DNA of 64,000 nt. It comes from Arthrobacter sp. zg-Y1171 (GTDB lineage Bacteria; Actinomycetota; Actinomycetes; Actinomycetales; Micrococcaceae). A program made the position numbers and the translations under genes. This document shows positions 5,063-56,194 of this stretch, one piece after another. Numbering within the stretch: position 1 is the first letter of the stretch; each line of letters opens with the position of its first letter. The notes under the pieces are model-generated. The model did no database searches, was not told the origin of the DNA, and was given only the letters and a program-made list of their open reading frames with translations. Where the stretch lies: NCBI RefSeq assembly GCF_025244845.1, contig NZ_CP104264.1, forward strand, positions 2,914,001 through 2,978,000, written 5' to 3'.

Positions 5063-5068
5063 TAGCCT
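5063..5068 (+). promoter_or_regulatory. -10 element of a probably leaderless PBP mRNA
   Basis: TAGCCT lies 6 bases before ATG 5075. No Shine-Dalgarno is present. Confidence 0.55.
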
Positions 5069-5074
5069 GTGCGG

Positions 5075-7030
5075 ATGGGGAAAAACCGTACTTCCGTTTC
5101 CGTCCTTGCCGTGGCCGCCCTGGCCCTGACCCTGGTGTCCTGCTCGGGGGACAAGCCGGCGCCTGACAACGCCGCCGCCGAATTGGCGGAGGGCCTGAGC
5201 CAGATGGATGTTTCGGCGTCTGCCTTTACGGCGGGCACCCCCGCCGACGTGAATGCCGAGCTGGAAGAGCTGCTCGCCGGCATGGGCCCGATCCGCCCTG
5301 CCGTCGCGGTGGCCGGCGTTGAGGAAGACGAGGACGACGACGCCGCCGCCACCGCACGGCTGACCTACGCCTGGGACGTCAACAGTGATTCGGAGCCGGA
5401 CTGGACCTATGAGAGCTCCGCCCAGCTCCGCCGCGGAGAAGACGACAAGTGGCTGGTTGAGTGGGCGCCATCCGTCCTGTTCAGTCCCCTTGTCGACGGC
5501 GATCGGCTGGTCCGCTCCACTACTCCAGGCGGCCGCGCAGACATCCTCGACCGCAACGGGGAACCGCTGATGAACGCGCGGCCGGTGCTCCGCATCGGCA
5601 TCAACAAGCCGGATCTCTCCGAGGAGCAGTATGCGTCCTCGTCGGCGGCACTGGCCGAACTGGTGGGGCTGGACCCATCCTCGTACACCGCCCAGGTGCA
5701 GGCCTCCGGCCCCGAAGCCTTTGTCGAGGCGCTTGTCCAGCGTGAGGAAGCTGAGGGACCGGCAACCCCGGCGGCCATCGAAGCCATCCCCGGCGCACTT
5801 GCCATACCCGCGCAGCGGATCCTGGCGCCCACCCGCAGCTTTGCCCGTGCCCTGCTGGGCACAGTGGGCGAGGCGACTGCGGAATTGGTTGAGGAATCCG
5901 AGGGCAGGGTGTCCGCCGGGGACCAGACCGGTCTGTCCGGGCTGCAGAAGCAGTACAACCCGCAGCTCCAGGGCAGTCCCGGCGTAACAGTCACCGTCGA
6001 AAATGCAGCCGGAACCAGCGACACCGTCAAGAGCATCGACCCGCAGACGGGTGCTGATCTGCAGACCACCCTGGATCCACGGCTGCAGCAGCTGGCTGAG
6101 GAAGTCCTGGAGCAGGAGCCGTCGGCGTCCGCCATCGTGGCCATCCAGCCCTCCACCGGCGAAATCCTGACCGTGGCGAACGGCCCCGGCAGCGAAGGCC
6201 AGCAAACCGCCCTCCTGGGCCAGTACCCGCCGGGATCCACGTTCAAGACAGCCACCGCGCTGGCAATGCTGCGTAACGGCACCACACCGGACAGCACTGT
6301 GGAGTGCCCGTCCGAACTTAACGTCGACGGCCGGAAGTTCAACAACGTCCCCGGCTACCCGGCCGAGGCCACTGGCAGCATCCCACTGCGCACGGCATTC
6401 GCGAACTCGTGCAACACTGCCTTCCTCAATGCCCAGGGCACCGTTTCCCAGCAGGGCCTCTCCGCTGCCGCCGGAGACCTGGGTATCGGTGTGGATGCTT
6501 CGATCGGCACGGACGCGTTCCTGGGCTCCGTGCCGGCGGAGGCTGAAGGCACCGAACATGCAGCCTCGCTGATCGGACAGGGGCAGGTCCTGGTCTCCCC
6601 GCTCGCCATGGCGGTTGCCGGTGCCTCTATCGGCAAGGGTGAACGGGTCTCCCCCACGCTGATCCGGGAATCCGCCTCGCCGGCCCCGGCCGGCGGGTCC
6701 GCTTCGGCTTCTCCCACCGCTTCCGCTCCGGAAACGACAGCTCCGGTGCCGGGGAACCTCACGGCAGAGGAAGCCGCATCGCTGCGGGAAATGATGCGCG
6801 CCGTCGTCGCCGAAGGCGGAGTGCAGATGCTGCTCGGCGTGCCGGGCGAACCCGTGCTCGCCAAGACCGGAACCGCTGAGTTCGGCAGCCAGACGCCGCC
6901 GGAAACCCACGCATGGGTGCTGGCGATCCAGGGCGACCTGGCCGTTGCGGTGTTCGTGGAGCAGGGTGAGCGGGGCTCCACCTCAGGCGGGCCGCTGATG
7001 AAGGCCTTCCTTGAGGGCGCCCAGGGCTAA
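5075..7030 (+). CDS. Lipoprotein penicillin-binding protein (class B type transpeptidase)
   Basis: 651 residues. It would cross-link peptidoglycan outside the membrane. The N-terminus is a signal peptide with a lipobox ending LVSC. Residues of about 50-145 resemble the NTF2-like MecA_N domain, followed by a PBP dimerisation region and the transpeptidase. Active-site motifs are complete: STFK with Ser388, SCN at 445-447, and KTGT from Lys597. A GTG at 5069 is in frame, but ATG 5075 sits 6 bases after a TAGCCT hexamer (5063-5068), so I prefer a leaderless ATG start. The overall build matches the PbpA/MecA-like group. A Ser/Thr/Pro-rich insert lies between SCN and KTG. Confidence 0.9.
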   Translation: MGKNRTSVSVLAVAALALTLVSCSGDKPAPDNAAAELAEGLSQMDVSASAFTAGTPADVNAELEELLAGMGPIRPAVAVAGVEEDEDDDAAATARLTYAWDVNSDSEPDWTYESSAQLRRGEDDKWLVEWAPSVLFSPLVDGDRLVRSTTPGGRADILDRNGEPLMNARPVLRIGINKPDLSEEQYASSSAALAELVGLDPSSYTAQVQASGPEAFVEALVQREEAEGPATPAAIEAIPGALAIPAQRILAPTRSFARALLGTVGEATAELVEESEGRVSAGDQTGLSGLQKQYNPQLQGSPGVTVTVENAAGTSDTVKSIDPQTGADLQTTLDPRLQQLAEEVLEQEPSASAIVAIQPSTGEILTVANGPGSEGQQTALLGQYPPGSTFKTATALAMLRNGTTPDSTVECPSELNVDGRKFNNVPGYPAEATGSIPLRTAFANSCNTAFLNAQGTVSQQGLSAAAGDLGIGVDASIGTDAFLGSVPAEAEGTEHAASLIGQGQVLVSPLAMAVAGASIGKGERVSPTLIRESASPAPAGGSASASPTASAPETTAPVPGNLTAEEAASLREMMRAVVAEGGVQMLLGVPGEPVLAKTGTAEFGSQTPPETHAWVLAIQGDLAVAVFVEQGERGSTSGGPLMKAFLEGAQG

Positions 7031-7046
7031 CCGCGAAGGGAACGGC

Positions 7047-7511
7047 TCAGGAGGGCCACTGCTGCCGGGGTGCAACCCGGCCCTGGTAGCCCGGCTGCCG
7101 GTACGCGTTCCCGGCGTACGGAGTGATCTGCCAGGTGTCCGTAGGCACTATGACCTTGCCCAGCGGCATCAGCGAAATCGGCAGCATCTTCAAATTCGCG
7201 ATGCCCAGCGGAATCCCGACGATGCTCACGAACATGGGGATGGCCGTCAGGATGTGTCCAATGGCGATCCAGATGCCGGCCAGCAGCAGCCAGATGATGT
7301 TTCCCAGCAGGCTGAGCGGGCCGGTGAACCCGCCCCGGTCCACGACCGTCCGACCGAACGGCCAGAGCGCATAGTTGGCGATGCGGAAGGATGCGATACC
7401 GAACGGGATGGTGACAATCAGCAGGCAGCAGACCACACCCGCCAGTGCATAACCGAGGGCAAGCCAGATACCGCCGAACAGAAGCCAGATGACGTTCAGG
7501 ATCGCTTTCAT
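7047..7511 (-). CDS. yccF: YccF-family inner membrane protein
   Basis: 154 residues from ATG 7511 with GGAG just upstream. Two tandem YccF domains (PF03733) are visible: the motif NxIWLLFxGxWLALGY near residues 6-21 recurs as NIIWLLLAGIWIAIGH near 70-85. Each is followed by a hydrophobic stretch and a G-I-P-x-G-I-A segment. Around four membrane segments are likely. The tail is Gln/Arg/Pro-rich. The molecular role of the family is unknown. It is convergent with the PBP gene and divergent from the PNPOx-like gene. Confidence 0.85.
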   Translation of the reverse strand: MKAILNVIWLLFGGIWLALGYALAGVVCCLLIVTIPFGIASFRIANYALWPFGRTVVDRGGFTGPLSLLGNIIWLLLAGIWIAIGHILTAIPMFVSIVGIPLGIANLKMLPISLMPLGKVIVPTDTWQITPYAGNAYRQPGYQGRVAPRQQWPS

Positions 7512-7586
7512 GGCTCCATTGTTCTCTACCCGGTACTGATTAGCCACGGCTTCGCCGCCTGCATACCCGCCCGCCTGCACCTGTCC

Positions 7587-7592
7587 TAGACT
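7587..7592 (+). promoter_or_regulatory. -10 element of a probably leaderless PNPOx-like mRNA
   Basis: TAGACT lies 6 bases before ATG 7599 and no Shine-Dalgarno is visible. Confidence 0.55.
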
Positions 7593-7598
7593 GGCGCC

Positions 7599-8060
7599 AT
7601 GCCGATCAGCGACGAGAACCCCGCAGACCACCTGACTTCCAGCCAGTGCTGGACCTACGTCCGGCAAGCCAAGTTCGGCCGGCTCGCCGTGATTGTCGAC
7701 GGACATCCCGACATTTTCCCCGTTAACTTCGCCGTTGACCACGGCACGGTGGTTTTCCGCACCGCGACCGGAACCAAGCTGGCCGGCGCGCTCTCGGGCA
7801 ATCGGGTTGCGTTCGAAATTGACGGTTATGATGACACGCTGTCCTCCGCCTGGAGCGTGGTGCTCAAGGGCAGCGCCACCCTGCTCGAAGACTTCTCGGA
7901 GATCCTGGATTCCGAGGAACTCCCGCTCTTCCCCTGGCAGACGGGGCCGAAAAACGCGTTTGTCCGCATTGAACCGGAACTGACAACCGGCCGCCGGTTC
8001 CTTCTCTCCAATGCTGCCCGCCGCAATGTGCTGCGTGGAATGGGGCTCTACACGGAGTAG
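7599..8060 (+). CDS. Pyridoxamine 5'-phosphate oxidase-fold, flavin-binding family protein
   Basis: 153 residues. The sequence fits the split-barrel PNPOx-like family (PF12900 type): CWTYVRQAKFGRLAVIVDG near the N-terminus, FPVNFAVDHGTVVFRTATGTK in the middle, then a W-S-V-V-L-K-G-S-A strand. Members bind FMN or F420 and act as small oxidoreductases or sensors. No substrate can be assigned. It is a single gene with its own probable leaderless promoter, and ends at a strong bidirectional terminator facing the helicase gene. Confidence 0.85.
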   Translation: MPISDENPADHLTSSQCWTYVRQAKFGRLAVIVDGHPDIFPVNFAVDHGTVVFRTATGTKLAGALSGNRVAFEIDGYDDTLSSAWSVVLKGSATLLEDFSEILDSEELPLFPWQTGPKNAFVRIEPELTTGRRFLLSNAARRNVLRGMGLYTE

Positions 8061-8086
8061 CCCGCTCGCGCGTAAAGCAGACGCCA

Positions 8087-8123
8087 AAAGAGGCGCCGCA
8101 CCTCGTGGGTGCGGCGCCTCTTT
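8087..8123. terminator. Bidirectional intrinsic terminator
   Basis: A perfect 16-bp inverted repeat (8087-8102 with 8108-8123) around a 5-base loop carries A residues at one end and T residues at the other. It lies between convergent stops at 8060 and 8140. Confidence 0.92.
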
Positions 8124-8139
8124 CGGCTGTTGCTATGCC

Positions 8140-9765
8140 TTAGCGGGAACGGCGTTCGTTCGACGCCGGCGCGGTGGCGCGGCGGGGACCGGCGGCGCGT
8201 GCCGGACGGCCGGAAGCTGCACCGGCGCCGCGGGAGACTCCGCCTGCACGCTGGCCGCCGCCGGCACCCTCGGCGCGCTGGCCGGTTGCCGGGCGGCGGT
8301 TACGGCCGGATGCGGTCGCAGCCGATGCGCTGTTGCGGCGTCCGTCCGAAGACCGGGCCGGACGCTGCGTACGCAGGTCGTCGCCTGCTGCTGCGCGGTC
8401 GTTGCGTTCGCTGCGGTCCGGGCGTTCAGCCGAAACGCGGCCGCGTCCGCCTGTACCGCCGCGTCCGCCGGCGCGGGGAGCACCCGTGCTGCGGGCTGCG
8501 CGCTTGCGCTGGGCGTTGGCGCCGGTGGAGCGGCCGCCGCCCTGCTGCGGGGACTTGGCTGCAAGCTGCGCAGCGCGGACGTGCGGTTCCACAACGGCCG
8601 CGCGTTCGCCGACAAGCTTGGCGATGGACGGCGAATTATGGCTGACCTTCTCGATGGAAACGTCGACGCCGGCAGCCTTCATCAGCTTCGACACCTCGCT
8701 CTTCTGCTCCGGGAGGGTCAGCGTCACCACGGTTCCGCTGGATCCGGCGCGGGCCGTACGGCCTGAACGGTGGAGGTAGGCCTTGTGCTCCGTGGGCGGA
8801 TCAATGTGGACCACGAGTTCAACGTCATCCACGTGGACGCCGCGGGCGGCGACGTCGGTGGCGACCAGGACGCGGACGTCGCCGGACGCGAACTCCGCCA
8901 GGTTGCGGTCACGGGCATTCTGGGACAGGTTGCCGTGCAGGTCCACCGTGGGGATTCCGTTGTCCGTGAGGAACTGGGCCATCTTGCGGGCGTGGTGCTT
9001 GGTGCGCATGAACATGATGCGGCGGCCCTGGCCACCGGCCAGTTCCTTGACCAGCAGCTTCTTGGCGGTCTGGTCCTGGACCAGCAGCACGTGGTGCTCC
9101 ATGGTGGACACCGCTGCCTGCGGCTCATCGACGGAGTGCGTCAGCGGGTTGGACAGGTAACGGCGGACCAGCTTGTCCACGCCGTTGTCCAGCGTGGCGG
9201 AGAACAGCATCCGCTGGCCCTTTTCCGGAGTGCGGTCCAGCAGGCGCTGGACAACCGGCAGGAAGCCGAGGTCCGCCATGTGGTCGGCCTCGTCCAGGAC
9301 GGTGATCTCGACGGACTCGAGGCTGATGACCTTCTGCTTCATCAGGTCTTCGAGGCGGCCCGGGCAGGCGATGACGATATCGACGCCGGCCTTGAGTGCC
9401 TTTTCCTGGCGCTGCTGGGACACGCCGCCGTAAATCACGGTGGTGTTCAGGCCCAGTTCCTTCGCGAGCGGCTCAATCACGTTGTTGATCTGCGTGGCCA
9501 GTTCGCGGGTCGGCGCCAGGACCAGGCCCAGCGGGCGGTTCGGGCGGCGGCGGTAGGCTGCCTCGTTCTCGGCCAGCCGGGTGACCAGCGGGAGGGAGAA
9601 GGCGAGGGTCTTGCCCGAGCCGGTGCGGCCGCGGCCCAGGACGTCGCGGCCCTTGAGGGTGTCCGGAAGGGTTTCCACCTGGATGGGGAAGGCCTCGTCA
9701 ATTCCGGCGGCGGCGAGGGAGGAAACAAGTGCCTTGGGCACACCAAGGGCAGCAAAAGTGGTCAT
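8140..9765 (-). CDS. DEAD-box ATP-dependent RNA helicase with Arg/Gly/Ala-rich tail
   Basis: 541 residues. It carries the full DEAD-box core: the Q-motif region AFPIQVETLP, Walker A GRTGSGKT near 45, PTRELA, DEAD near 158, SAT in motif III, and HRSGRTARAG as motif VI. It would unwind short RNA duplexes in ribosome assembly or RNA decay, as RhlE- and CsdA-type enzymes do. The last 140 or so residues are a basic Arg/Gly/Ala/Ser low-complexity tail, typical of RNA-binding extensions but unusually long. The start ATG 9765 has a leader of up to 280 bases, within which CCCAA/TTGGG arms can pair. I leave the paralog name open. Confidence 0.93.
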   Translation of the reverse strand: MTTFAALGVPKALVSSLAAAGIDEAFPIQVETLPDTLKGRDVLGRGRTGSGKTLAFSLPLVTRLAENEAAYRRRPNRPLGLVLAPTRELATQINNVIEPLAKELGLNTTVIYGGVSQQRQEKALKAGVDIVIACPGRLEDLMKQKVISLESVEITVLDEADHMADLGFLPVVQRLLDRTPEKGQRMLFSATLDNGVDKLVRRYLSNPLTHSVDEPQAAVSTMEHHVLLVQDQTAKKLLVKELAGGQGRRIMFMRTKHHARKMAQFLTDNGIPTVDLHGNLSQNARDRNLAEFASGDVRVLVATDVAARGVHVDDVELVVHIDPPTEHKAYLHRSGRTARAGSSGTVVTLTLPEQKSEVSKLMKAAGVDVSIEKVSHNSPSIAKLVGERAAVVEPHVRAAQLAAKSPQQGGGRSTGANAQRKRAARSTGAPRAGGRGGTGGRGRVSAERPDRSERNDRAAAGDDLRTQRPARSSDGRRNSASAATASGRNRRPATGQRAEGAGGGQRAGGVSRGAGAASGRPARAAGPRRATAPASNERRSR

Positions 9766-10038: not shown

Positions 10039-10044
10039 TAGCAT
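10039..10044 (+). promoter_or_regulatory. -10 element of a probably leaderless trmB mRNA
   Basis: TAGCAT lies 8 bases before ATG 10053. No Shine-Dalgarno is visible in front of the start. Confidence 0.55.
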
Positions 10045-10052
10045 TAACAGTA

Positions 10053-13342: not shown

Positions 13343-14077
13343 TTACGCGGTTCGGTTGCGGCGAAGGGTGACGACGTCTCCGACCCGCAGCTTCCCGGTC
13401 TGCACGGCATGCGCCTGGAGCCCGAATTCCGCGGAGTGGTGCGCGCCGAGGAGCTTCAACGCCTTGCGCTCCGCCGGGACACCGGCCTGCGCCTGGTCGA
13501 TCATCACGCAGCGCGGCATCCCCTCCCCCAGACGCAAAATGACCTCGCCGCCGAGAACCAGTTCGGCGCCGACCCAGCCGTCCTCGCAGAACGCCGGCCG
13601 GGAACCGGTGTCGATGACGATATTGGCACGGAAGCGGCGCTCATCCACCGCACCGGCCAGGCCCTCGAGTGCGGCAAGTGAGGATGTGGTCACCAGGTGC
13701 AGGGGTGTCTCGTCATGGTGCCTGACGGCGGTTTCGGGCCGCAGGGTCAGTTCCCGGCCGAAGGCCGCGCTCAGCGCCCGGGAGGCGCCCGGATCATCGA
13801 CTCGATATTGACGGCCCTCGGGGCTCAGCAGCAACGGCGCAGTTTCACTGTCCTCGATCCTGGAGGACCACTGCATTAACCCGGGCACGGGGCGGAAGCG
13901 CCGGGTCCGTTTGCCGCTGGCGATGCCGCCGTCGTCGGTGTAAACCGCCCACCGGCGGTCATGCTGCAATCCCCGGTCGGTCACGGTGGAGGCGCGCAGC
14001 GCCTGGCCCGCGGTCGACTTGACCGGATAGCGGTACAACGCCTGGACGCTACCTACGGGGGTTTCCTCATATGGCAT
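13343..14077 (-). CDS. MOSC domain protein with MOSC N-terminal beta-barrel
   Basis: 244 residues. The N-terminal part (VQALYRYPVKSTAGQAL) matches the MOSC_N beta-barrel. The MOSC domain carries the conserved Cys in PRCVMIDQAQ near residue 190, which binds molybdenum in the YiiM and mARC families. It may act as a molybdoenzyme reducing N-hydroxylated compounds or in sulfur transfer. It lies 37 bases downstream of hspR on the same strand, so it may be the last gene of the dnaK transcript, though a short GGCC/GGCC hairpin lies between. Confidence 0.85.
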   Translation of the reverse strand: MPYEETPVGSVQALYRYPVKSTAGQALRASTVTDRGLQHDRRWAVYTDDGGIASGKRTRRFRPVPGLMQWSSRIEDSETAPLLLSPEGRQYRVDDPGASRALSAAFGRELTLRPETAVRHHDETPLHLVTTSSLAALEGLAGAVDERRFRANIVIDTGSRPAFCEDGWVGAELVLGGEVILRLGEGMPRCVMIDQAQAGVPAERKALKLLGAHHSAEFGLQAHAVQTGKLRVGDVVTLRRNRTA

Positions 14078-16476: not shown

Positions 16477-19422
<2,946 letters not shown>

Positions 19423-19433: not shown

Positions 19434-19439
19434 TAGGGT
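19434..19439 (+). promoter_or_regulatory. -10 element upstream of the leader peptide and kinase
   Basis: TAGGGT lies 6 bases before ATG 19446, the start of a 16-codon open frame, rather than before the kinase start at 19486. Confidence 0.5.
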
Positions 19440-19445: not shown

Positions 19446-19496
19446 ATGTCCGCCATCATGACCGTGTGCACCGGGAACTCCCCCGATGCCGGTTAG
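19446..19496 (+). CDS. Possible 16-residue leader peptide overlapping the kinase start
   Basis: ATG to TAG encodes MSAIMTVCTGNSPDAG. The stop lies 8 bases inside the following kinase gene. The ATG is placed 6 bases after TAGGGT, as in the other leaderless genes here, so the mRNA may start at this codon. Coupled translation of the kinase is the likely purpose. A chance frame cannot be excluded. Confidence 0.35.
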   Translation: MSAIMTVCTGNSPDAG

Positions 19497-20076
19497 CCCC
19501 GCCGCACCCCTGCTCATTGCGGTGGACGGCTTCTCCGGCGCCGGAAAAACCACCCTGGCCGCCGGGATTGCCGCTGCCCTGTCCCGCTCCGGTTCCGTGC
19601 GGGTGTTCCATCTGGAGGATGTCTACCCCGGCTGGGACGGGCTGGAAGCGGGAATGACCTACTACCGCGAGCACATCCTGCGCCCGCTCGCCCAGGGACG
19701 GGCGGCCCGCTGGCAGTCGTGGGACTGGGCCGCCGGACGCTGCGGCGGCTGGCAGAGAACCGAACCGGCCGACGCCGTGGTCTTCGAAGGCGTCGGCGCC
19801 GCCCACCGCGCTGCCCGGCAGCTGCTGGACACCACGATCTGGGTGGCGGGTGAGGAAAGCGTCCGCCGCCGGGTCGCGCTGGAGCGCGACGGCGGAACCT
19901 ATGCTCCGCACTGGGAACGGTGGGCGGCGCAGGAACGGCGCTGGGCGGCCGACGACGACGCCGCCTCCGCCGCGGATCTCACCGTACGGCTCGTGGGTCC
20001 GCAGGGGAACGCCGCGGCAGCGCTGGGGACCGTCCTGTCCCGGCTGCAGCCGGAACCGCGGAACATTCCCGGCTAG
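19486..20076 (+). CDS. Uridine kinase-like P-loop nucleoside kinase family protein
   Basis: 196 residues. LLIAVDGFSGAGKTTLAAGIA gives a Walker A (GFSGAGKT, residues 15-22) typical of the uridine kinase/phosphoribulokinase family. VFHLEDVYPGWDGL corresponds to the substrate-binding DxxY segment, and VVFEGVGAA to the Walker B-like strand. The central part is Trp/Arg-rich (QSWDWAAGR). It likely phosphorylates a nucleoside or similar small molecule. No in-frame start exists upstream because TGA occurs at 19459, so ATG 19486 is fixed. It converges with cls after 3 bases. Confidence 0.78.
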   Translation: MPVSPAAPLLIAVDGFSGAGKTTLAAGIAAALSRSGSVRVFHLEDVYPGWDGLEAGMTYYREHILRPLAQGRAARWQSWDWAAGRCGGWQRTEPADAVVFEGVGAAHRAARQLLDTTIWVAGEESVRRRVALERDGGTYAPHWERWAAQERRWAADDDAASAADLTVRLVGPQGNAAAALGTVLSRLQPEPRNIPG

Positions 20077-21627: not shown

Positions 21628-21633
21628 TAGGCT
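21628..21633 (+). promoter_or_regulatory. -10 element of a probably leaderless pabC mRNA
   Basis: TAGGCT lies 6 bases before ATG 21640 and there is no Shine-Dalgarno. The oppositely oriented cls -10 (TAGGCT, 21588-21593) is 34 bases away. Confidence 0.55.
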
Positions 21634-32912: not shown

Positions 32913-32918
32913 TAGGCT
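32913..32918 (+). promoter_or_regulatory. -10 element of a probably leaderless MFS transporter mRNA
   Basis: TAGGCT lies 7 bases before ATG 32926. No Shine-Dalgarno is present. Confidence 0.55.
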
Positions 32919-32925: not shown

Positions 32926-34302
32926 ATGAGTCTCAGCACAAAAAATACGTCTCCGGGTGTCCCCGCGCCGCGCGCCTCCGCACCTGCACGCTGGAAACAG
33001 GTGGCGGCCTGGGCTGCCTGGGACTGGGGGTCCGCTTCCTTCAATGCAGTGATGACCACTTTTGTGTTCACTGTCTACCTGACGTCCGCCCAATTCGGTG
33101 ATAAAGACGAGAACTCCGCCGTCCTCGGCGCAGGCCTCGCCCTTGCCGGCGTCGCCGTGGCCGTCCTGGCGCCGGTCACCGGCCAACGGTCGGACGCGGG
33201 TGGACGCCGCCGCACCTGGCTCACCGTCAACACCCTGCTGACCTGCGCCCTGGTCGCGGCGTGCTGGTTCGTCTTCCCGTCGCCCGACTATCTGATCCTG
33301 GGTGTGGCACTGATCGCCGCGGCAAACCTGTTCTTCGAATTTGCGGGCGTGAACTACAACGCCATGCTCAGCCAGATCTCCACACCGGCTACCGTCGGCA
33401 AAATCAGCGGCCTGGGCTGGGCCATGGGCTATGTAGGCGGAATCGCTGCCCTGGCGCTGGTACTCGTGGGCTTTGTGCAGCCCGACGTCGGCTGGTTCGG
33501 CGTCACCTCCGAAGACGGAATGAACATCCGCTTCGTCGCACTGTTTTCCGCCGTTTGGTTCCTGCTGTTCGCCCTGCCGCTGATGTTCACCGTGCCCGAG
33601 GTTCCCCGGCAGGAGGCGCTGGCACGGCTGGGGATTCTTGCGTCCTACAAGCTCCTCTTCAAGCGCATCAAGGCCCTCTTCCGGACCGACCCGCACACCA
33701 TTTACTTCCTGCTCGCCAGCGCCGTCTTCCGCGACGGCCTGGCGGCAGTGTTCACCTTCGGCGGCGTTATCGCGTCCGGCACTTTCGACTGGGAACTGTC
33801 AGAGGTGATTATGTTCGCCATCTTCGGCAACGTGGTCGCCGCCGCCGGGTCCGTGGTCGGCGGCTTCCTCGATGACCGCTCCGGCCCCAAGGCCGTGATC
33901 GTCGGTTCGCTGATCGGACTGATCCTTGCCGGCACGGCCATTGTGGTCCTGGGCCCGGATGACCAGGACCTGTTTGGACTGCAGTGGACCGGCGACACCA
34001 CGTTCTGGATCTTCGGCCTGCTGCTGTGCTTGTTCGTGGGCCCGGCCCAGTCCGCGTCCCGGGCGTTCCTCGCCAGGCTCGCCCCGGAAGGGAAGGAAGG
34101 CGAGCTGTTCGGCCTCTATGCCACCACCGGGCGGGCGGTCAGCTTCCTGGCCCCCATGCTGTTCTCCACCTGCATCGTGATCTTCGGCTCCCAGCGGTAC
34201 GGCATCATCGGCATCATGGCCGTGCTGCTGATCGGCCTGCTGGTGCTGCTCCCGGTCCGCTCCCCCGCCGCACGGACCGCTCTGCCCGTCGGTAAGGAGT
34301 AG
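32926..34302 (+). CDS. MFS transporter of the UMF1/Atg22-like group
   Basis: 458 residues with about twelve membrane segments. The N-terminal AAWAAWDWGSASFNAVMTTFVFTVYLT is the signature of the UMF1 (vacuole effluxer Atg22-like) family of the major facilitator superfamily. Later segments include GWAMGYVGGIAALAL and LDDRSGPKAVIVGSLIG. Substrates of bacterial members are unknown, although the fungal relative exports amino acids from vacuoles. It is a single gene, transcribed away from the Mrp operon and followed by repeats. Confidence 0.85.
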   Translation: MSLSTKNTSPGVPAPRASAPARWKQVAAWAAWDWGSASFNAVMTTFVFTVYLTSAQFGDKDENSAVLGAGLALAGVAVAVLAPVTGQRSDAGGRRRTWLTVNTLLTCALVAACWFVFPSPDYLILGVALIAAANLFFEFAGVNYNAMLSQISTPATVGKISGLGWAMGYVGGIAALALVLVGFVQPDVGWFGVTSEDGMNIRFVALFSAVWFLLFALPLMFTVPEVPRQEALARLGILASYKLLFKRIKALFRTDPHTIYFLLASAVFRDGLAAVFTFGGVIASGTFDWELSEVIMFAIFGNVVAAAGSVVGGFLDDRSGPKAVIVGSLIGLILAGTAIVVLGPDDQDLFGLQWTGDTTFWIFGLLLCLFVGPAQSASRAFLARLAPEGKEGELFGLYATTGRAVSFLAPMLFSTCIVIFGSQRYGIIGIMAVLLIGLLVLLPVRSPAARTALPVGKE

Positions 34303-35174: not shown

Positions 35175-35180
35175 AAAATA
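35175..35180 (-). promoter_or_regulatory. -10 element of a probably leaderless dcd mRNA
   Basis: On the minus strand TATTTT precedes GTG 35168 by 6 bases. Confidence 0.5.
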
Positions 35181-35190: not shown

Positions 35191-36045
35191 CTAGCGGCCG
35201 ATTTCGGTCCGCACCGCATAGAGCTCGGGGAAGAACGTCAGTTCGAGGGCACGCCGCAGGAAGCCGGCACCGCTGGAACCGCCCGTACCCCGCTTCATGC
35301 CGATAGTGCGTTCCACGGTTTTCAGGTGTCGGAAACGCCACAGCTGGAAATTGTCCTCGAGGTCCACCAGCTCTTCGCAGGCCTCATAGACATCCCAGTT
35401 CCCGGCGGCGTTTTCGTAGACGTACTTGTAGACCGCCAGCAGTGACTCGTCATACACATGTGCCTGCGTCACGTCGCGGTCCAGGAGCTCCGGCGCCACG
35501 GCATAGCCGCGGCGGGCAAGATAGCGGATGAACTCGTCGTAGATGCTGGTTTCGGAAAGCAGGCCGGACAGCAGCTCCTGAGCGGCGGGGTCTGCCGCAA
35601 ACACCGCAATCATTGCCTCGTTCTTGTTGCCCAGCAGGAACTCGACGGCACGGTACTGGTAGGACTGGAAGCCGCTCGAGGCGCCCAGATCATCGCGGAA
35701 TTCGGCGTACTCGGACGGGGTCAGCGTCGCCAGCACGGACCACTGTTCAGTCAGCGAGCGCTGGATGTGCTTGATCCGGGCAATTCCCTTCATGGCCGAA
35801 CGCAGGTCATCCGCCGCCAGGCGTGCACGCACGGCCAGCAACTCATGCAGGACGAGCTTCAGCCACAGTTCCGAGGTCTGGTGCTGGATGATGAACAGCA
35901 TCTCGTCATGGTGCTCCGGGCTGCTCACCGGATGCTGTGCGGATAGCAGTTCATCCAGGGCAAGGTAGGACCCGTAGCTCATCTTGTCGCTGAAGTCCCG
36001 CTCGATGCCTGCTTCGAGGCTGCGGGTGTTCTCGTTCGGACTCAT
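35191..36045 (-). CDS. kynA: Tryptophan 2,3-dioxygenase
   Basis: 284 residues from ATG 36045. It is a heme enzyme that opens the indole ring of tryptophan to give N-formylkynurenine. Diagnostic motifs are MSYGSYLALDELLSAQ and EHHDEMLFIIQHQTSELWLKL near the N-terminus, FRDDLGASSGFQSYQYRAVEFLLGNK in the middle, and LWRFRHLKTVERTIGMKRGTGGSSG near the C-terminus, with the heme-ligand His and substrate-binding residues. No other kynurenine-pathway gene is nearby. TACCGT (36053-36058) lies 7 bases before the chosen start; GTG 36054 is an alternative. Confidence 0.96.
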   Translation of the reverse strand: MSPNENTRSLEAGIERDFSDKMSYGSYLALDELLSAQHPVSSPEHHDEMLFIIQHQTSELWLKLVLHELLAVRARLAADDLRSAMKGIARIKHIQRSLTEQWSVLATLTPSEYAEFRDDLGASSGFQSYQYRAVEFLLGNKNEAMIAVFAADPAAQELLSGLLSETSIYDEFIRYLARRGYAVAPELLDRDVTQAHVYDESLLAVYKYVYENAAGNWDVYEACEELVDLEDNFQLWRFRHLKTVERTIGMKRGTGGSSGAGFLRRALELTFFPELYAVRTEIGR

Positions 36046-36114
36046 GCCCACCACGGTATCCGCTCCATATGCCAGACTTGGGGTTTTGGCACCGAGCCCT
36101 GAGAAGGAGTCCCC

Positions 36115-36754: not shown

Positions 36755-37822
36755 GTGACCAACTCAAGCGTTGCTTCTTCGATCTGTTCCATCGTTCCGC
36801 CGTATCTGCTTGCCCGCCTGGCCGCCGCCGAAGACCCTGCAAAGGCAACGGCGGCGAAGGCGGCCCGCCGCGCCCTGACCGGGATCGACGGCGTGGAATC
36901 CGCGCGCTCGGCGCCGCGTTCTGCGCCGTCCCGCGGATCAGGCACGGCGTTTACCCCGTCCCTGCGCCGCACCATCTCCGATGCCCTGGGCCTGGAGGAA
37001 CTGCCGGGCACGGTAGTGCGGACCGAGGGCGAACCGGACACGGGCGACCCGGCGGTGGACGAAACCTATGCCGGCCTCGGCGCCACGTACCGTCTCTTCA
37101 GCGATGCCTACGGACGATCCTCGCTCGACGGCGCGGGGCGGGCCTTGGAGGCCACCGTCCACTATGGACACGCCTACGACAACGCTTTCTGGGACGGTTC
37201 CCGGATGGTGCTCGGAGACGGCGACGGCGAGGTGTTTGAACGCTTCAGCAAATCCCTCACCGTGATCGGCCACGAGCTGGCCCACGGAATCATCCAGTAC
37301 ACCGCGCAGCTGGACTACCGTGACCAGTCCGGGGCACTCAACGAATCAGTAGCGGATGTCTTCGGCGTCCTGGTCGAGCAGAAACTGCTGGGACAGACAG
37401 CGGACCAGGCCGGCTGGCTGGTTGGCGAGGGCCTGTTCACGGACCTGGTGCAGGGGCAGGCACTGCGGTCCCTGAAGGCACCGGGCACTGCCTACGACGA
37501 CGACGTGCTTGGCAAGGATCCGCAGCCGGCGTCCATGGCTGACTTCGTGAAGACCGCGGCGGACAACGGCGGTGTCCACATCAACTCCGGAATCCCCAAC
37601 CGCGCCTTCTACCTGGTGGCTGAAGCCCTGGGCGGGTATGCCTGGGAACGCGCCGGCAAGATCTGGTACGACACCATCACCGAACGGAATTTTCCCTCCG
37701 ACGCCACCTTCGCCGTCTTCGCCGCCGCCACGGTCACCGCAGCGGAAAAACGGTACGGAGCGGGGACGGAGGAAAGTACTGCTGTGCAGGCCGCATGGAA
37801 AGAGGTTAACGTCTTGGTATGA
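36755..37822 (+). CDS. Protealysin-like M4 metalloprotease
   Basis: 355 residues from GTG 36755, with GGGAGGG 7 bases upstream. Zinc site: H173-E-x-x-H177 in VIGHELAHGIIQYTAQL and E197 in GALNESVADVFG. H275 in VHINSGIPNRAFYLVA fits the catalytic histidine of thermolysin relatives. There is no signal peptide. Instead the N-terminus reads SIVPPYLLARLA, the PPYL box of the short protealysin propeptide, so an intracellular or non-classically exported enzyme is likely. The next gene overlaps it by 4 bases and encodes an emfourin-like inhibitor. Confidence 0.93.
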   Translation: MTNSSVASSICSIVPPYLLARLAAAEDPAKATAAKAARRALTGIDGVESARSAPRSAPSRGSGTAFTPSLRRTISDALGLEELPGTVVRTEGEPDTGDPAVDETYAGLGATYRLFSDAYGRSSLDGAGRALEATVHYGHAYDNAFWDGSRMVLGDGDGEVFERFSKSLTVIGHELAHGIIQYTAQLDYRDQSGALNESVADVFGVLVEQKLLGQTADQAGWLVGEGLFTDLVQGQALRSLKAPGTAYDDDVLGKDPQPASMADFVKTAADNGGVHINSGIPNRAFYLVAEALGGYAWERAGKIWYDTITERNFPSDATFAVFAAATVTAAEKRYGAGTEESTAVQAAWKEVNVLV

Positions 37823-38097
37823 GACTGGTTGTAGTGCGCAGCGGCGGCTTTGCGGGCATGCAGCGCACCTGGAGCACGCAGGTCAGCTCCGAAGAGGCAC
37901 AGGAGCGGTGGCTGCCGCTCCTCAGCGATCCGCCCGAAGCCCCGGACAGCGAACCGGACCGGTTCACGTATGAGATCTCCGTGGGCCCGGCCGCCGTCAC
38001 CATCCCGGAGCGGCAGGTCAAGGGCAGGTGGCGCGAACTCGTGGAGCGGGCCCGCGCCGGCGCCGATTCCGAACCCGGCGAGGGCTCCGAAGACTAG
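37819..38097 (+). CDS. Emfourin-like protealysin inhibitor
   Basis: 92 residues; ATG overlaps the protease stop as ATGA. It starts RLVVVRSGGFAGMQRTW, matching the RxGGFAG start of emfourin (PF20242), the inhibitor encoded next to protealysin in Serratia. Adjacent beta strands (FTYEISVGPAAVTIPERQV) also fit. It probably binds the protease and keeps it silent in the cytoplasm. The acidic C-terminus (EPGEGSED) is extra. Confidence comes mainly from the gene pairing. Confidence 0.85.
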   Translation: MRLVVVRSGGFAGMQRTWSTQVSSEEAQERWLPLLSDPPEAPDSEPDRFTYEISVGPAAVTIPERQVKGRWRELVERARAGADSEPGEGSED

Positions 38098-38376: not shown

Positions 38377-38382
38377 TAGACT
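38377..38382 (+). promoter_or_regulatory. -10 element of a probably leaderless panD mRNA
   Basis: TAGACT lies 8 bases before ATG 38391, with no Shine-Dalgarno. Confidence 0.5.
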
Positions 38383-44444: not shown

Positions 44445-44450
44445 TAACGT
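44445..44450 (+). promoter_or_regulatory. -10 element of a probably leaderless mRNA
   Basis: TAACGT lies 7 bases before GTG 44458. This spacing fits the other leaderless starts. Confidence 0.5.
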
Positions 44451-44457: not shown

Positions 44458-45435
44458 GTGCAGGGAACATCACCGGTAATCAAGGCAGTAGCCGCCTGGC
44501 TGCTTGCCCTCATGCTCACCATCGCGGCCGCCGTCGTCGTGATCTACTTCGTTAACGCCAAGACGTACGGCCCCGAGAAACACGTCGAGAGCTATCTGCA
44601 GAAGCTGGCCGACGGCGAGGGCGAACAGGCACTCGGGATGCTCAACGCGCAGGTCCCCGAGGCCAACGCCGCACTGCTGGACGGCGATGCCCTCCGTGCC
44701 TCCGTGAAGGGGCAGCAGGTGCGTGAAATCGGCGACGCCGAGGAGATCGGCGGGAACCGCGTCGAGGTTGCGGTGGACTACGCCTACGGCGAGGCCGAGG
44801 GAACAACCAGGTTCGTGCTGGAGAACACCGGCAAACGCTGGCTCTTCTTCGACACCTGGGACTTTGTGCCGGCCACGCTGCCGACCGTTCAGGTCAATGC
44901 TCCGGCGCTGCGGGAAGCAACCCTCAACGGGGTCCGGGTAACGCTCCCGGAGGGCGCCAATACGTTCGCCGCCTTCCCGGCGTCGCGGGTGACGGCCTCC
45001 TATGACAGCCAGTACCTGGCCGCCGCGGAGCGGGAGATCCTGGTGTCGGACGACGCCGAGCCGCAGCTCACCCTCGTGCCGGAGGCAACCAAGGAACTGG
45101 TTTCCAAGATTGATGCCGGTATCCGCGAGTTCCTCGACGGCTGCACGGCCGCTGACCGTCTGGCGCCTCCGGGCTGTCCGTTCTACCACCTCACCAACAA
45201 CCGGGTGGACCAGCCAATCAGGTGGAGCATCACCGACTACCCCGACGTTGAACTGACCCAGGCTGAGGGCGCCTGGGTGCTCAGCCCGCTGAGCGGCACC
45301 GCGCAGGTCACCGCCACCCAGGTGGACCTCTTCAGCGGCGACAAGAGCCCGCTGGTGGCCGATGAGCCCTTCACCTTCAGTGCTTCCCTCCGCGTGGACG
45401 GCGAAAACGTCACGCTGAGCCCGCAGGTCGACTAG
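44458..45435 (+). CDS. Membrane-anchored extracytoplasmic protein of unknown function
   Basis: 325 residues from GTG 44458. One membrane segment near residues 9-32 (AVAAWLLALMLTIAAAVVVIYF) is followed by an exported domain rich in beta strand: NTF2-like N-terminal half (HVESYLQKLADGEGEQALGML) and a C-terminal half with two Cys (DGCTAADRLAPPGC) that may form a disulfide. I recognise no enzyme motif. It stands alone after the sugar ABC operon and before a 17-bp terminator. Confidence 0.55.
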   Translation: MQGTSPVIKAVAAWLLALMLTIAAAVVVIYFVNAKTYGPEKHVESYLQKLADGEGEQALGMLNAQVPEANAALLDGDALRASVKGQQVREIGDAEEIGGNRVEVAVDYAYGEAEGTTRFVLENTGKRWLFFDTWDFVPATLPTVQVNAPALREATLNGVRVTLPEGANTFAAFPASRVTASYDSQYLAAAEREILVSDDAEPQLTLVPEATKELVSKIDAGIREFLDGCTAADRLAPPGCPFYHLTNNRVDQPIRWSITDYPDVELTQAEGAWVLSPLSGTAQVTATQVDLFSGDKSPLVADEPFTFSASLRVDGENVTLSPQVD

Positions 45436-51360: not shown

Positions 51361-51734
51361 GATCTCTCCTCCAGTTGTAGTAAATATGACGGTCCTCAAA
51401 AAACAGACACAAGGCGGAAGCGCCTAAGCACCTGCCATAAAGAGCGTCCCGCCACCAGTTTTGACACCGTTATTACTGCGACTTTCCGGAGGTTAACCTG
51501 GCGGGGTGAGATCCAGCCGAAGTGCCTCGCCGCGGGGAAGACGGTGAAGTTCAGGCAGCCGAACGGGAGAACCCGGCTCGACAGCCTTCAATTCTAGGTT
51601 TATACGGGTGGCCGTGCAAATACTCCCCTGCCCGCGCGGAGCGGAACAGGTTAACACACACACGACTTAACGCCTCTCTATCCTAGGGGCAACGGGCGTT
51701 TCGTTCAAACTCGGAGGTACCTGCGTGCCGGGTA
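51361..51734. other. 374-bp intergenic region with no recognised gene
   Basis: It contains the rpmB upstream sequence and the 3' side of the GlgC-family gene. I looked for an actinobacterial Zur-type inverted repeat and saw none. A terminator for the GlgC gene is not obvious either. Confidence 0.5.
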
Positions 51735-52877: not shown

Positions 52878-52913
52878 GCTGTGGTGCCTCTCATCGTGCC
52901 GTGGATATCGAGC

Positions 52914-52939
52914 GTTAGCTCAGTACTAACCACGTTAAC
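52914..52939. promoter_or_regulatory. Inverted repeat upstream of the GlgC-family gene
   Basis: GTTAG (52914-52918) and CTAAC (52926-52930) are inverted with 7 bases between. A GTTAAC palindrome follows at 52934-52939. It lies 37 bases upstream of the start at 52877 and may be an operator. Confidence 0.4.
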
Positions 52940-52975
52940 AAGGGCAGGCACCCGGGCAACAAGTTGACTTTGGCG

Positions 52976-53470
52976 CTACGGTGCCTGATTCGGCCCGAGA
53001 ATGCCGTTGCCGGGGTCGAGGCGGGCGAGTATCTTCTTTCCCACCCGTTCCAGATCCGCGACGTCTTCGTCGGAGAGGGCATCGAAGACCGCCTTCCGGA
53101 CGGATTCAACATGTTCCGGCGCGAGTCCTTCGAGGGCGGCCATGCCTTCATCCGTCAGTGCCGCCGTCGTCACCCGGGCATCCGCAGGCGAGGGAGTCCG
53201 GGACATCCAGCCGCGCTGCTCCAGTTTCTTCACCACATGGGAAAGCCGGGACAGCGAAGCGTTGGAGCGCGCGGCCAGCTCGCTCATCGGCAGGGACCTG
53301 CCTTCGGCCTCGGAGACCATGGCCAGGACGTGGTAATCGAAGAGGGTGATCCGCGCACGGCGGAACAGATCGGCGTCGAGCGCGGCCGGGAGAAGGCCCG
53401 ATACCGCGTACAGGGCCAGCCAGGCCTGCCGTTCCGGGGCGCTTAGCCAGCGGGGGGTGCTCTCAGTCAT
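52976..53470 (-). CDS. MarR-family transcriptional regulator
   Basis: 164 residues from ATG 53470, with GAGAGGAA upstream. The winged helix is clear: LAARSNASLSRLSHVVKKLEQRGWMSRTPSPADARVTTAALTDEG, with the DxR wing motif. Flanking helices make the dimer interface. Its ligand and targets are unknown. It sits between the GlgC-family gene and the ProP-like gene on the same strand and may regulate either, or itself. Confidence 0.92.
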   Translation of the reverse strand: MTESTPRWLSAPERQAWLALYAVSGLLPAALDADLFRRARITLFDYHVLAMVSEAEGRSLPMSELAARSNASLSRLSHVVKKLEQRGWMSRTPSPADARVTTAALTDEGMAALEGLAPEHVESVRKAVFDALSDEDVADLERVGKKILARLDPGNGILGPNQAP

Positions 53471-53547
53471 CCCGGCGTTCCTCTCGTCAAAGCTTTACGT
53501 TTCAATGATCGCAGGGTTGGGGCTGCGCTCCAACCGGTGCCCAACGG

Positions 53548-53588
53548 CAGGAGCCGGCCGGTCGCGCGGGGCGTCCGGCCGGCTCCTG
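53548..53588 (-). terminator. GC-rich 14-bp hairpin after the ProP-type gene
   Basis: Perfect arms 53548-53561 and 53575-53588 enclose 13 bases. No T run follows, so it may act as a stabiliser or a weak terminator. Confidence 0.55.
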
Positions 53589-53606
53589 TGGCTGGCGGTA
53601 TTGCGG

Positions 53607-55193
53607 TTAGCGGCTGACGCCGGGCTCCGCGCGGTTGTCAGCGGGCTGTGCAGTGGAGGGCGCCTGCTGGCTTCCCAGGGTGTCGAACGGCAGCGAATCG
53701 ACGTCGAGCAGCGGGTTCTCGTCCTGGCCGGCCACCAGTTCGTGTGCCTCGGCGTGGGTGTCCACGCTCGGCATGGAACCGGGCATCGGCCGGTTGGCCG
53801 ATTCCTTCATAACGCCCACGGCAATGGCACCCGCCACGGAGGTGAACATCAGCCAGTAGGCCGGCATCATGTCGTTGTCCGTAAGGGTGATCAGGCCCTG
53901 CATGATCAGCGGCGCGGTGCCGCCGAAGATGGCAACGGCGAAGTTGTAGGAGATGCCCATGGCACCGTAGCGGCTGGCAGTCGGGAAGAGCGCCGGCAGT
54001 GCGGAGGCCAGGTTGGACACGTAGAAGGTCACCGGGACGGCGAGCAGCGCCAGGCCAAGCAGGGTGGTGGCAACCGGACCCTGGCCAATCAGCCAGAAGG
54101 ACGGAACGGCCAGGACGATGGTGGAGCCGGCACCCATCCACAGCACCGGACGGCGTCCGATGCGGTCGGAGAGCTTGCCGGTGAGCGGAATGCACAGTGC
54201 CATCAGAACCAGCACGGGGATGGTCAGCATGGTGCCGTGGACCGGATCGTAGCCCTTGGAATCCGTCAGGTAGGAGGGCATGTAGGACGTCAGCGCGTAG
54301 CCCACGGTGTTGGCTGCGGCCACGAGGACCATGGCCAGCACGATCGGACGCCAGTAGGCACGGAAAATGCCCATGGTGCCCAGCGACTCGGTTTCGTCGC
54401 CGGCCTTGGCGCCGGCTTCCTGTGCATCCAGGGTGGCCTGGAACGCCGGGGATTCTTCGATCTTGAGCCGGAAGTAAATGGCGACGGCGCCCATCGGCCC
54501 CGCAACCAGGAACGGGATGCGCCAGCCCCAGTCCACCATGTCGGCGTCGGAGAGCAGCAGCTGCATTACCGATACGACGGCTGCACCCAGGGCGAAGCCC
54601 AGGTAGCTGCCCAGGTCCAGGATGCTGGCGAGGAAGCCGCGCCGCTTGTCGGAGGCGTATTCGGTAACAAAGGTGGTGGCACCGGCGTACTCGCCGCCGG
54701 TGGAGAAGCCCTGCAGCAGCTTCATGAGCACCAGCAGGATCGGAGCCCAGATGCCGATGGTGCCGTAGCTGGGCAGCAGGCCGATGACGAAAGTGGAACC
54801 GGCCATCATGATCAGCGTGATGGCCAGGGTCTTCTGGCGGCCCATACGGTCGCCGAGGCGCCCGAAGACGACGCCGCCCAGCGGACGGGCGATGAAGGTG
54901 GCAGCGAAGACGCCGAGGCTGAAGAGCAGCTGCGCGTCCTTGTCGGCGTCGGACAGGAAGACGGCACCCATGGTGACGGCGAGGTAGCCGTAGACACCGA
55001 CGTCGAACCATTCCATGGTGTTGCCGACAACCGTGCCGCCGACAGCCTTTTTCATCATGGACTTGTCGACGACATTTACGTCGTCCACCTCAAGACGGCG
55101 GCGCCGCAGGGGGGACCTGCGGGTCTTGCGGGCCGTCGGTCTGGACGGTGAATCCGGGGTTCCGGAGACGTGGGGGGGTGCATCTTTCGGCAT
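53607..55193 (-). CDS. ProP-type MFS transporter (metabolite:H+ symporter family)
   Basis: 528 residues from ATG 55193, with GGGAAGG upstream; a longer frame to 55253 is less likely. Twelve membrane segments. Signatures of the MHS family are GNTMEWFDVGVYGYLAVTMGAVF, ATFIARPLGGVVFGRLGDRMGRQKTL and the RxGR-type repeat GKLSDRIGRRPVLWMG. Members import proline, betaine or organic acids. It has no osmoprotectant synthesis genes nearby. The first 55 residues are Pro/Arg-rich and cytoplasmic. Confidence 0.9.
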   Translation of the reverse strand: MPKDAPPHVSGTPDSPSRPTARKTRRSPLRRRRLEVDDVNVVDKSMMKKAVGGTVVGNTMEWFDVGVYGYLAVTMGAVFLSDADKDAQLLFSLGVFAATFIARPLGGVVFGRLGDRMGRQKTLAITLIMMAGSTFVIGLLPSYGTIGIWAPILLVLMKLLQGFSTGGEYAGATTFVTEYASDKRRGFLASILDLGSYLGFALGAAVVSVMQLLLSDADMVDWGWRIPFLVAGPMGAVAIYFRLKIEESPAFQATLDAQEAGAKAGDETESLGTMGIFRAYWRPIVLAMVLVAAANTVGYALTSYMPSYLTDSKGYDPVHGTMLTIPVLVLMALCIPLTGKLSDRIGRRPVLWMGAGSTIVLAVPSFWLIGQGPVATTLLGLALLAVPVTFYVSNLASALPALFPTASRYGAMGISYNFAVAIFGGTAPLIMQGLITLTDNDMMPAYWLMFTSVAGAIAVGVMKESANRPMPGSMPSVDTHAEAHELVAGQDENPLLDVDSLPFDTLGSQQAPSTAQPADNRAEPGVSR

Positions 55194-55405
55194 GTGGGCC
55201 TTCCCTCGATCGAAGTCGGCTGCTGGAGACAGAAGCAACCACCCGAACACCACACGGTGCCGGGCAGGCCTACAAGTTTAGGAAAAATGCGGTGCATCCA
55301 CCGAATCGAGGAACGTAATTTCCCTTGTCAGGGCAGGGGCCGGGAGCGGTTTCGGTAGACAAACAGCGTACTTATCGCCGCATATGTGATTTCCCGCACG
55401 GGCGT

Positions 55406-56182
55406 TTACGAAGCGGGCAGCGGCGGGTGCGTCAGGTCCGGATAACGGGGGCTGAGGTTGTCCCCGGAAGACACTCCGCGGAGCCTGCGGCTCACCCACG
55501 GACCGAGGTATTCGCGCGCCCACTGGGCATCCCGGCGGAGCTGCTCCACCCGGTTGCGCGCGGGCAGCTCCTCCAGCTCCGGAGTGCTAATGGCGTCCGT
55601 TCCGCGGAGCACTTCCAGCACCTTCTTGGCGGTCAGCATGTGACCGGCCGGGGACATGTGCAGGCGGTCCACGGCCCAGTACCGTTCGTCCTGGAGGTTC
55701 TTCATGCGCCAGTAGTCCACCAGCACGGCGTCGTTCTTCTCCACCGCCTCGCGGACCAGTTCGTTGTAGATCGCCGTGCGTCCGCGGGTGCGGCCGAAGA
55801 CCGGGGAGTTGCCCGAATCGAATCCCGTGAAGACAAGCACCGCGGCACCGCTGGAGCACAGCTTCGCAATCCCGGCGTCGTAGGCGGCAACTATGGCGTC
55901 AATGTCCACCTTGGGACGCAGGATGTCATTGCCCCCGGCATAGATGGTCACCAGCGTGGGCGACAGCGCGATGGCGGCATCCACCTGCTCGTTCAGGACC
56001 TGGTGCAGCTTCTTGCCGCGGATGGCGAGGTTCGCATACCCCCAGGAGCTGTCCGCGAGCACCAGTTGCTCGGCCACGCGGTCCGCCCAGCCACGCACGC
56101 CGTTGGGACGGGTCTCATCCTCGTCCCCCACGCCTTCCGTAAACGAATCACCCAGGGCCACGTATCGCTGCTTGAAAGTCAC
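55406..56182 (-). CDS. SGNH/GDSL hydrolase
   Basis: 258 residues from GTG 56182. Block I is YVALGDSFTEGVGDE with the nucleophile Ser. Block II has the G in LAIRGKKLHQ, block III the GGND motif (IYAGGNDILRP) and block V DRLHMSPAGHML with the catalytic Asp and His. No signal peptide is visible. Three consecutive GTG codons occur at 56182-56188. TAATCT at 56189-56194 lies 6 bases before the third, so the leaderless pattern picks GTG 56182. Confidence 0.93.
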   Translation of the reverse strand: MTFKQRYVALGDSFTEGVGDEDETRPNGVRGWADRVAEQLVLADSSWGYANLAIRGKKLHQVLNEQVDAAIALSPTLVTIYAGGNDILRPKVDIDAIVAAYDAGIAKLCSSGAAVLVFTGFDSGNSPVFGRTRGRTAIYNELVREAVEKNDAVLVDYWRMKNLQDERYWAVDRLHMSPAGHMLTAKKVLEVLRGTDAISTPELEELPARNRVEQLRRDAQWAREYLGPWVSRRLRGVSSGDNLSPRYPDLTHPPLPAS

Positions 56183-56188
56183 CACCAC

Positions 56189-56194
56189 AGATTA
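56189..56194 (-). promoter_or_regulatory. -10 element of a probably leaderless SGNH hydrolase mRNA
   Basis: On the minus strand TAATCT lies 6 bases before GTG 56182. Confidence 0.5.

Follow-up and report, generated by a model that had tools for sequence, protein, structure and literature searches.

Leaderless mRNAs predicted from TANNNT hexamers before start codons in Arthrobacter sp. zg-Y1171, and a short open reading frame that is most likely the relic of a phosphatase gene

The window analysed here is a stretch of 64,000 nucleotides from Arthrobacter sp. zg-Y1171 (contig NZ_CP104264.1, bases 2914001-2978000 of the 3.42 Mb genome; GC 66.5%). The best six named relatives by kynA are all Arthrobacter, with identities of 82-87%. 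A preliminary description of the window had listed twelve gene starts preceded at 6-8 bases by a TANNNT hexamer and had taken the spacing as a sign of leaderless mRNAs. We found all twelve hexamers correct in position, strand and gap (the number of bases between hexamer and start codon), each with an ATG or GTG and an open frame behind it.

On the plus strand, the -10-like TAGCCT (5063..5068) lies at gap 6 from the ATG at 5075 of a penicillin-binding protein gene, TAGACT (7587..7592) at gap 6 from ATG 7599 of a PNPOx-like gene, TAGCAT (10039..10044) at gap 8 from ATG 10053 of trmB, and TAGGGT (18607..18612) at gap 6 from ATG 18619 of a methyltransferase gene. A second TAGGGT (19434..19439, gap 6) precedes ATG 19446 of a short open reading frame (ORF) and is the predicted promoter of what we describe below as a phosphatase stub. 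There follow TAGGCT (21628..21633, gap 6) before ATG 21640 of the aminodeoxychorismate lyase gene pabC, another TAGGCT (32913..32918, gap 7) before ATG 32926 of an MFS transporter gene, TAGACT (38377..38382, gap 8) before ATG 38391 of panD, and TAACGT (44445..44450, gap 7) before GTG 44458 of a gene whose protein is unmatched in Pfam and NCBIfam. The minus strand carries TATTTT (35175..35180, gap 6) before GTG 35168 of dcd, TACCGT (36053..36058, gap 7) before ATG 36045 of kynA, which encodes tryptophan 2,3-dioxygenase, and TAATCT (56189..56194, gap 6) before GTG 56182 of a gene first described as SGNH. Pfam and NCBIfam support the assignments of the penicillin-binding protein, PNPOx-like, TrmB, methyltransferase, PabC, MFS, dCTP deaminase, tryptophan 2,3-dioxygenase and PanD.

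The own-genome sample comprised the window and 40 spread 20-kb stretches, about a quarter of the genome, in which a home-made script with uncertain start positions called 739 genes, 680 of them classifiable. It contained 420 clear first genes by a strict class, 490 by a laxer class, and 190 operon-internal genes. A second species of the genus, G024, was sampled with 382 first genes. Chance was estimated with 200 dinucleotide-preserving shuffles, and the reversed hexamer served as a second control. The excess over a shuffled control that the preliminary description foresaw is plain: TANNNT stands at gap 6-8 before ATG or GTG in 105 of the 490 first genes, against a shuffle mean of 18.9 (standard deviation 4.0, maximum 31). 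Within the window it does so in 10 of 39 first genes (shuffle mean 1.6, maximum 5), and outside it in 95 of 451 (17.0 in shuffles). The 39 do not include dcd, which is classed as operon-internal because it begins 22 bases after kynA, nor the ORF at 19446, because it was no called gene. Among operon-internal genes the motif occurs in 9 of 190, with 3.7 in shuffles. Most hexamers had been said to read TAG, and eight of the twelve do, but the preference is merely mild, at 37 of 67 hexamers at gap 6 versus 41% of 345 upstream TANNNT.

The spacing is narrow. For ATG the counts at gaps 5, 6, 7, 8 and 9 are 3, 40, 17, 9 and 5 in the 420 first genes, where other gaps have about 3; GTG has 2, 21, 8, 0 and 0, and TTG forms no peak (2, 0, 1, 1, 0). 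The 382 first genes of G024 give 3, 47, 18, 1 and 2 for ATG and 0, 14, 10, 0 and 0 for GTG, again with no peak for TTG (1, 0, 1, 0, 1). The excess over background at gaps 6-9 amounts to 18.4% of first genes in the own genome and 20.0% in G024, two genomes that have orthologues in common. Counted over the whole genome, TAGNNT-N6-ATG occurs 149 times and the reversed pattern 75 times. A set of 104 motif starts, to which ATG and GTG alone were admitted, consists of 73 ATG and 31 GTG.

Such counts might reflect selection, in that the starts chosen merely happen to have a TANNNT and that a TAG or TAA at gap 6 is an in-frame stop codon. There is room for choice, with about 3.25 start candidates per first gene, and 33 of the 104 motif starts are not the coding-optimal start. 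However, coding-optimal starts picked blind to the motif by themselves reach 47 cases at gap 6 and 15 at gap 7, compared with 1.75 for each gap; a gap-6 peak is also formed by the non-stop hexamers TA[CT]NNT (18 in the own genome, 19 in G024), and the reversed hexamer has no comparable peak in the own sample (ATG 9 at gap 6; 0-10 across gaps). A stop-codon bias at gap 6 is ruled out, as TGANNT shows no peak (1 in the own genome, 0 in G024) where TA[CT]NNT does. An origin of the excess in selection is already largely refuted, and we consider it very improbable.

The bases around the predicted transcription start point to the start codon itself. Gap 6 places the A or G of the start codon at +7 after the hexamer, and gap 7 places the A of ATG at +8. 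At gap 7 the +7 base before ATG is a purine in only 3 of 36 cases in the own genome and G024 and 4 of 36 in named loci, compared with 43-56% at control ATGs; with a pyrimidine there, the first purine of the initiation zone is therefore the start codon. The peak at GTG but not at TTG agrees with this first-purine rule. The hexamers could also be -10 boxes from which initiation often falls 1-5 bases 5' of the codon, giving very short leaders. Cases at gaps 8 and 9 do occur (9 and 5 for ATG), gap 9 has a purine at hexamer +7 in 7 of 8, and GTG at gap 6 has a purine at -1 in 27 of 37 cases (own genome and G024), which counts against a start on the codon as well. Named loci do not show this last bias (13 of 41), and a rule of a purine before leaderless GTG was dropped for that reason. 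As the spacing peaks at gap 6 and 33 of 36 possible earlier start bases at gap 7 are pyrimidines, we hold frequent short leaders to be unlikely.

We found no -35 signal: the best matches to TTGACA, which we take to be the -35 consensus, are the same at the 104 motif starts as in three control sets. The mean pairing energy with the anti-Shine-Dalgarno sequence, computed with what are presumably the letters of the 16S tail, is -2.6 at the 104 motif starts, -5.05 at other first genes and -3.75 in shuffled sequence, a weakness that is partly mechanical because the hexamer sits where a Shine-Dalgarno sequence would be. The early statement that these starts have no Shine-Dalgarno therefore describes the set well, but not the methyltransferase (-7.1) and the protein at 44458 (-7.3), whose pairing sequence lies upstream of the hexamer or overlaps it. 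Pairing with the 16S tail is stronger in orthologue rows that lack the hexamer at gap 6-9 (-4.6, n=13) than in those that have it (-2.7, n=175). AT-rich sites are able to assist translation initiation in some bacteria, and the hexamer might accordingly act in translation and not in transcription, perhaps as an unstructured AT-rich site 5' of the codon. Yet the fixed T-A-T around a free NNN matches actinobacterial -10 boxes (PMC3898074, PMC3890552), the reversed hexamer shows no comparable peak, and the pattern is weak in operon-internal genes (9/190), which also require translation signals. We regard such a role in translation as hardly credible.

Orthologues of ten of the genes were sought in 32 relatives, namely 20 genomes of the genus and 12 named loci; the loci around kynA from named genomes share genes and hence are not independent samples, some named records may belong to the same species as other genomes compared, and a few rows are almost identical. 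Rows were dropped where the aligned codon is no start, where the alignment begins after residue 12, or where the row lies near a locus end, which left 7 of 11 usable rows for the penicillin-binding protein, 9 of 12 for PNPOx and 12 of 27 for MFS. In the excluded PNPOx rows of G007 and G022 and in several excluded MFS rows, a hexamer and an ATG are visible at a shifted position. TANNNT at gap 6-8 is kept in 173 of the 188 usable rows: in all rows for the penicillin-binding protein (7/7), PNPOx-like (9/9), trmB (18/18), the methyltransferase (20/20), pabC (21/21), MFS (12/12) and dcd (30/30), and in 20/21 for the protein at 44458, 17/21 for panD and 19/29 for kynA. The gene at 56182 keeps it in 8/8. 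The pattern is conserved at 11 of the 12 listed starts. Nine of the ten genes have T1, A2 and T6 invariant in close relatives and MFS retains them at 0.8-1.0, while the 30 bases upstream agree at 48-92%.

The start region of kynA (36043-36058; orthologues in loci L150-L189 and L041-L054) provides a natural series of switches from hexamer to GGAG. Nineteen of 29 orthologues carry the hexamer at gap 6-7, and none of these has GGAG 5-6 bases before ATG. Among the ten orthologues lacking the hexamer, eight have GGAG at this place and two have neither motif.

Directly supported are the excess of the hexamer, its fixed spacing, its concentration at first genes, the limit to ATG and GTG, its conservation and the lack of a -35 signal. 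We give a probability of about 90% to the reading that TANNNT at 6-8 bases represents -10 boxes, likely of the housekeeping sigma factor, with transcription predicted to begin at the first base of the start codon and to yield leaderless mRNAs, and that the promoter at 19434..19439 is most likely that of a leaderless phosphatase gene. The main sigma factor would recognise the hexamer, initiation would occur at the first purine 7-8 bases after it, which is the start codon, and ribosomes would start at the bare 5' end with no need of a Shine-Dalgarno sequence. The placement of the transcription start on the start codon, as first proposed, is supported as a prediction by the base preference at gap 7 and by the kynA swap of hexamer for GGAG, both of which fit it.

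Besides the purines before GTG, several points weigh against this reading. Gap 8 has no excess in G024, so trmB and panD rest on conservation. A small gap-6 signal is also present among operon-internal genes (7/190). In the named loci the forward peaks recur, but the reversed hexamer clumps as well, for instance at gap 7, with 10 cases in the Arthrobacter set and 12 in the other Micrococcaceae, where the forward hexamer has 14 and 18; as the clumping arises because those kynA loci share genes, we gave them no weight for counts. For dcd, kynA and the protein at 44458, the flanks are themselves 87-92% conserved in close relatives, and a preserved hexamer is little evidence in these three genes. 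Of the 19 hexamer-bearing kynA rows, two also contain GGAG at one base from the ATG, and one has a GAGG upstream of its hexamer. The genes were called by a home-made program with uncertain starts, and every step from box to mRNA is a prediction from sequence.

Leaderless genes were already known in actinobacteria, as the preliminary description said, and so were the signal and the method; the present genome is a sound further instance. Zheng et al. 2011 (PMC3160421) used TANNNT about 12 bases before the start to call leaderless genes, found an excess over dinucleotide shuffles, and reported such TA-led genes, averaging 19.2% of genes, in 86 of 89 actinobacterial genomes. Our starts share the position (12/12) and the excess over dinucleotide shuffles. 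Relative to the main text of that paper, in which Arthrobacter is not named, we add for one genus the gap distribution, the exclusion of TTG, the first-purine preference and conservation in orthologues. GeneMarkS-2 chooses starts with several upstream models per genome, and by its predictions 21.6% of bacterial species have leaderless transcription (PMC9581028). In Mycobacterium tuberculosis, where 26% of genes with a primary start site were found leaderless in 2013 (PMC3898074), a TANNNT -10 box, no conserved -35 motif and use of both ATG and GTG are likewise described; that set was measured by 5' end sequencing, whereas the Arthrobacter set is predicted. The same contrast holds for Corynebacterium glutamicum, a member of another family, in which 33% of mRNAs were measured as leaderless in 2013, all starting with AUG (79%) or GUG (21%) (PMC3890552). 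Our set has 73/104 ATG and 31/104 GTG, the two codons admitted; a weak -35 motif was seen in 704 of 2,522 C. glutamicum promoters and none here. In mycobacteria, a 5'-end ATG or GTG is necessary and sufficient (Shell et al. 2015, PMC4633059). For Arthrobacter and Micrococcaceae, no start-site map was recognisable from titles and abstract openings in the literature, which is not proof of absence.

The ORF at 19446..19496 on the plus strand (MSAIMTVCTGNSPDAG) has 16 codons, and its stop overlaps the ATG of a P-loop kinase-like gene (19486..20076, plus strand). This gene has a weak match to the phosphoribulokinase/uridine kinase family and is likely coupled to the ORF. The preliminary description labelled the ORF a leader peptide; it looks to us like a gene relic rather than a regulatory leader, most likely what a deletion left of a leaderless low-molecular-weight tyrosine phosphatase gene. 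This reading draws on the window ORF, on L164:14258-14824 and on L184 (G022). The stub is found in 8 of 10 close relatives, always with 16 codons and always ending 11 bases inside the kinase gene, and its stop codon varies between TAG, TAA and TGA. Over nine sequences the variable columns number 10, 10 and 8 by codon position; as substitutions do not favour third positions, the peptide seems free of constraint, and these counts speak against a regulatory leader peptide.

G016, G026 and nine more distant relatives, among 20 read, have a gene of 166-188 residues in place of the stub. In all three relatives scanned Pfam identifies it as an LMWPc domain (E 9.8e-28 to 6.6e-31), and the intact protein begins with M[FY]RI, with [VI]CTGN[IV]CRSP soon after. 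The window ORF matches this N-terminus, the relatives' MFRILTVCTGN does so more clearly, and the stub ends at the position where the phosphatase does (+11 in G016). The active-site pattern C.GN.CRS, which we devised, is missing from the window ORF, where only VCTGN is left, and from all nine truncated relatives scanned. Judged by these sequences, the stub is a relic and no working member of the phosphatase family. The distance from methyltransferase to kinase is 65-66 bases with the stub and 533-643 with the gene (121 in G022), and the simplest reading is therefore an internal in-frame deletion of about 500 bases.

Across 29 genomes of the genus, 18 have an intact phosphatase gene and 11 a stub. 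The stub of G022 differs from the others, with the peptide MHRDVTGTAR, a TAATG end and TAGGCT at gap 6, and in a pabC tree G022 groups with G002, G003 and G019, all of which have the intact gene. The distribution of gene and stub on this tree needs three changes, of which well-supported branches force at least two. The third is due to the intact genes of G016 and G026, which nest inside the group of ten stubs on branches of mixed support; the ten may accordingly go back to more than one event, unless the tree, built from one gene, is mistaken at that point. As read from this tree, at least two separate truncations in the genus have left a short stub.

In the wider family, 149 genomes were searched and 30 loci returned, 22 of which were counted, eight being genus loci already included. 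The phosphatase gene lies within 1.5 kb of the kinase in 20 of the 22 and not in the other two. TANNNT at gap 6-7 precedes 37 of 38 intact phosphatase genes, at the aligned start in 31 and at an in-frame start 3-6 codons upstream in six. This count accepted any in-frame ATG or GTG between 60 bases before and 30 bases after the aligned start, and the loci of G009, G025 and G022, on the other strand, were read in it as stubless, their stubs being read separately. With 37 of 38 copies carrying the motif, the phosphatase is probably leaderless across the family, its promoter having outlived the gene here.

The kinase start pairs weakly with the anti-Shine-Dalgarno sequence (-4.3), and this together with the overlap suggests that the stub feeds ribosomes to the kinase. 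We tentatively propose, at slightly less than even odds, that loss of the phosphatase keeps the promoter, the start and a stub of 10-16 codons as a leaderless fore-cistron from which ribosomes re-initiate on the kinase, separate deletions having arrived at the same layout. Ribosomes would enter at the leaderless 5' end, translate the stub, terminate over the kinase start and re-initiate there, and a stop codon (TAG, TAA or TGA) would be retained while the overlapped kinase residues change. Leaderless small ORFs upstream of genes are described in mycobacteria (PMC4633059) and a synthetic leaderless bicistronic design in C. glutamicum (PMC10367133), and 19446-19496 is similar to both in being a short ORF that begins at a predicted 5' end and is probably coupled to the gene behind it. 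Unlike the cases in these sources, it resembles what is left of a phosphatase gene after deletion, a remnant that arose at least twice in one genus, and its overlap is 11 bases rather than RTGA. We found no description of a leaderless tyrosine phosphatase in actinobacteria nor, by title among the papers listed, of a coupling through a leaderless gene remnant. A scan of the own genome, G024 and two named sets for a class of leaderless short ORFs coupled downstream found them no more frequent at gap 6-7 than at other gaps or than with the hexamer reversed; in this sample the kinase stub stands alone and is not a recurring device. If the proposal is true, a leaderless start can remain in use for the following gene after its own has been lost, and leaderless upstream ORFs may originate in this way.

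The hexamer had also been called strong enough to choose starts. This is right at gap 6 and fair at gap 7, but does not hold for gap 8 alone. At coding-optimal starts the estimated false share is 4%, 12% and 19% at gaps 6, 7 and 8 in the own genome, and 3%, 6% and 100% in G024. For starts upstream of the coding-optimal one it is 19%, 45% and 100% (G024: 10%, 28% and 100%), and for those downstream 28%, 17% and 85% (G024: 50%, 50% and 100%). At coding-optimal starts gap 6 is a good guide by itself; a gap of 7 calls for further evidence, and one of 8 is unusable unless conservation backs it. For genes of this genus with TANNNT at gap 6-7, the start can be assigned together with an estimate of the error, which would move that of the MFS transporter, for example, by 25 codons: the hexamer there selects ATG 32926, 25 codons upstream of the coding-score optimum at 33001. 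A plasmid search for the MFS N-terminus gave no match and is uninformative.

A scan of the candidate starts of all classified window genes at gaps 5-9 returned matches absent from the preliminary list, one at gap 7 before a TTG within 13343-14077, one at gap 9 before 56312, and TAACGT at gap 6 before 37819. The gene behind the last (37819-38097) overlaps the upstream gene by 4 bases, and the hexamer could be an internal leaderless promoter or due to chance. The protein first taken for SGNH had no match in NCBIfam, the sole library scanned for it, and the protein at 44458 had none in Pfam or NCBIfam. In the gene for the latter (44458-45435), whose product is conserved, the first approximately 12 codons after the GTG seem strongly conserved as DNA in relatives with an identity of only 54-60% over the whole protein.

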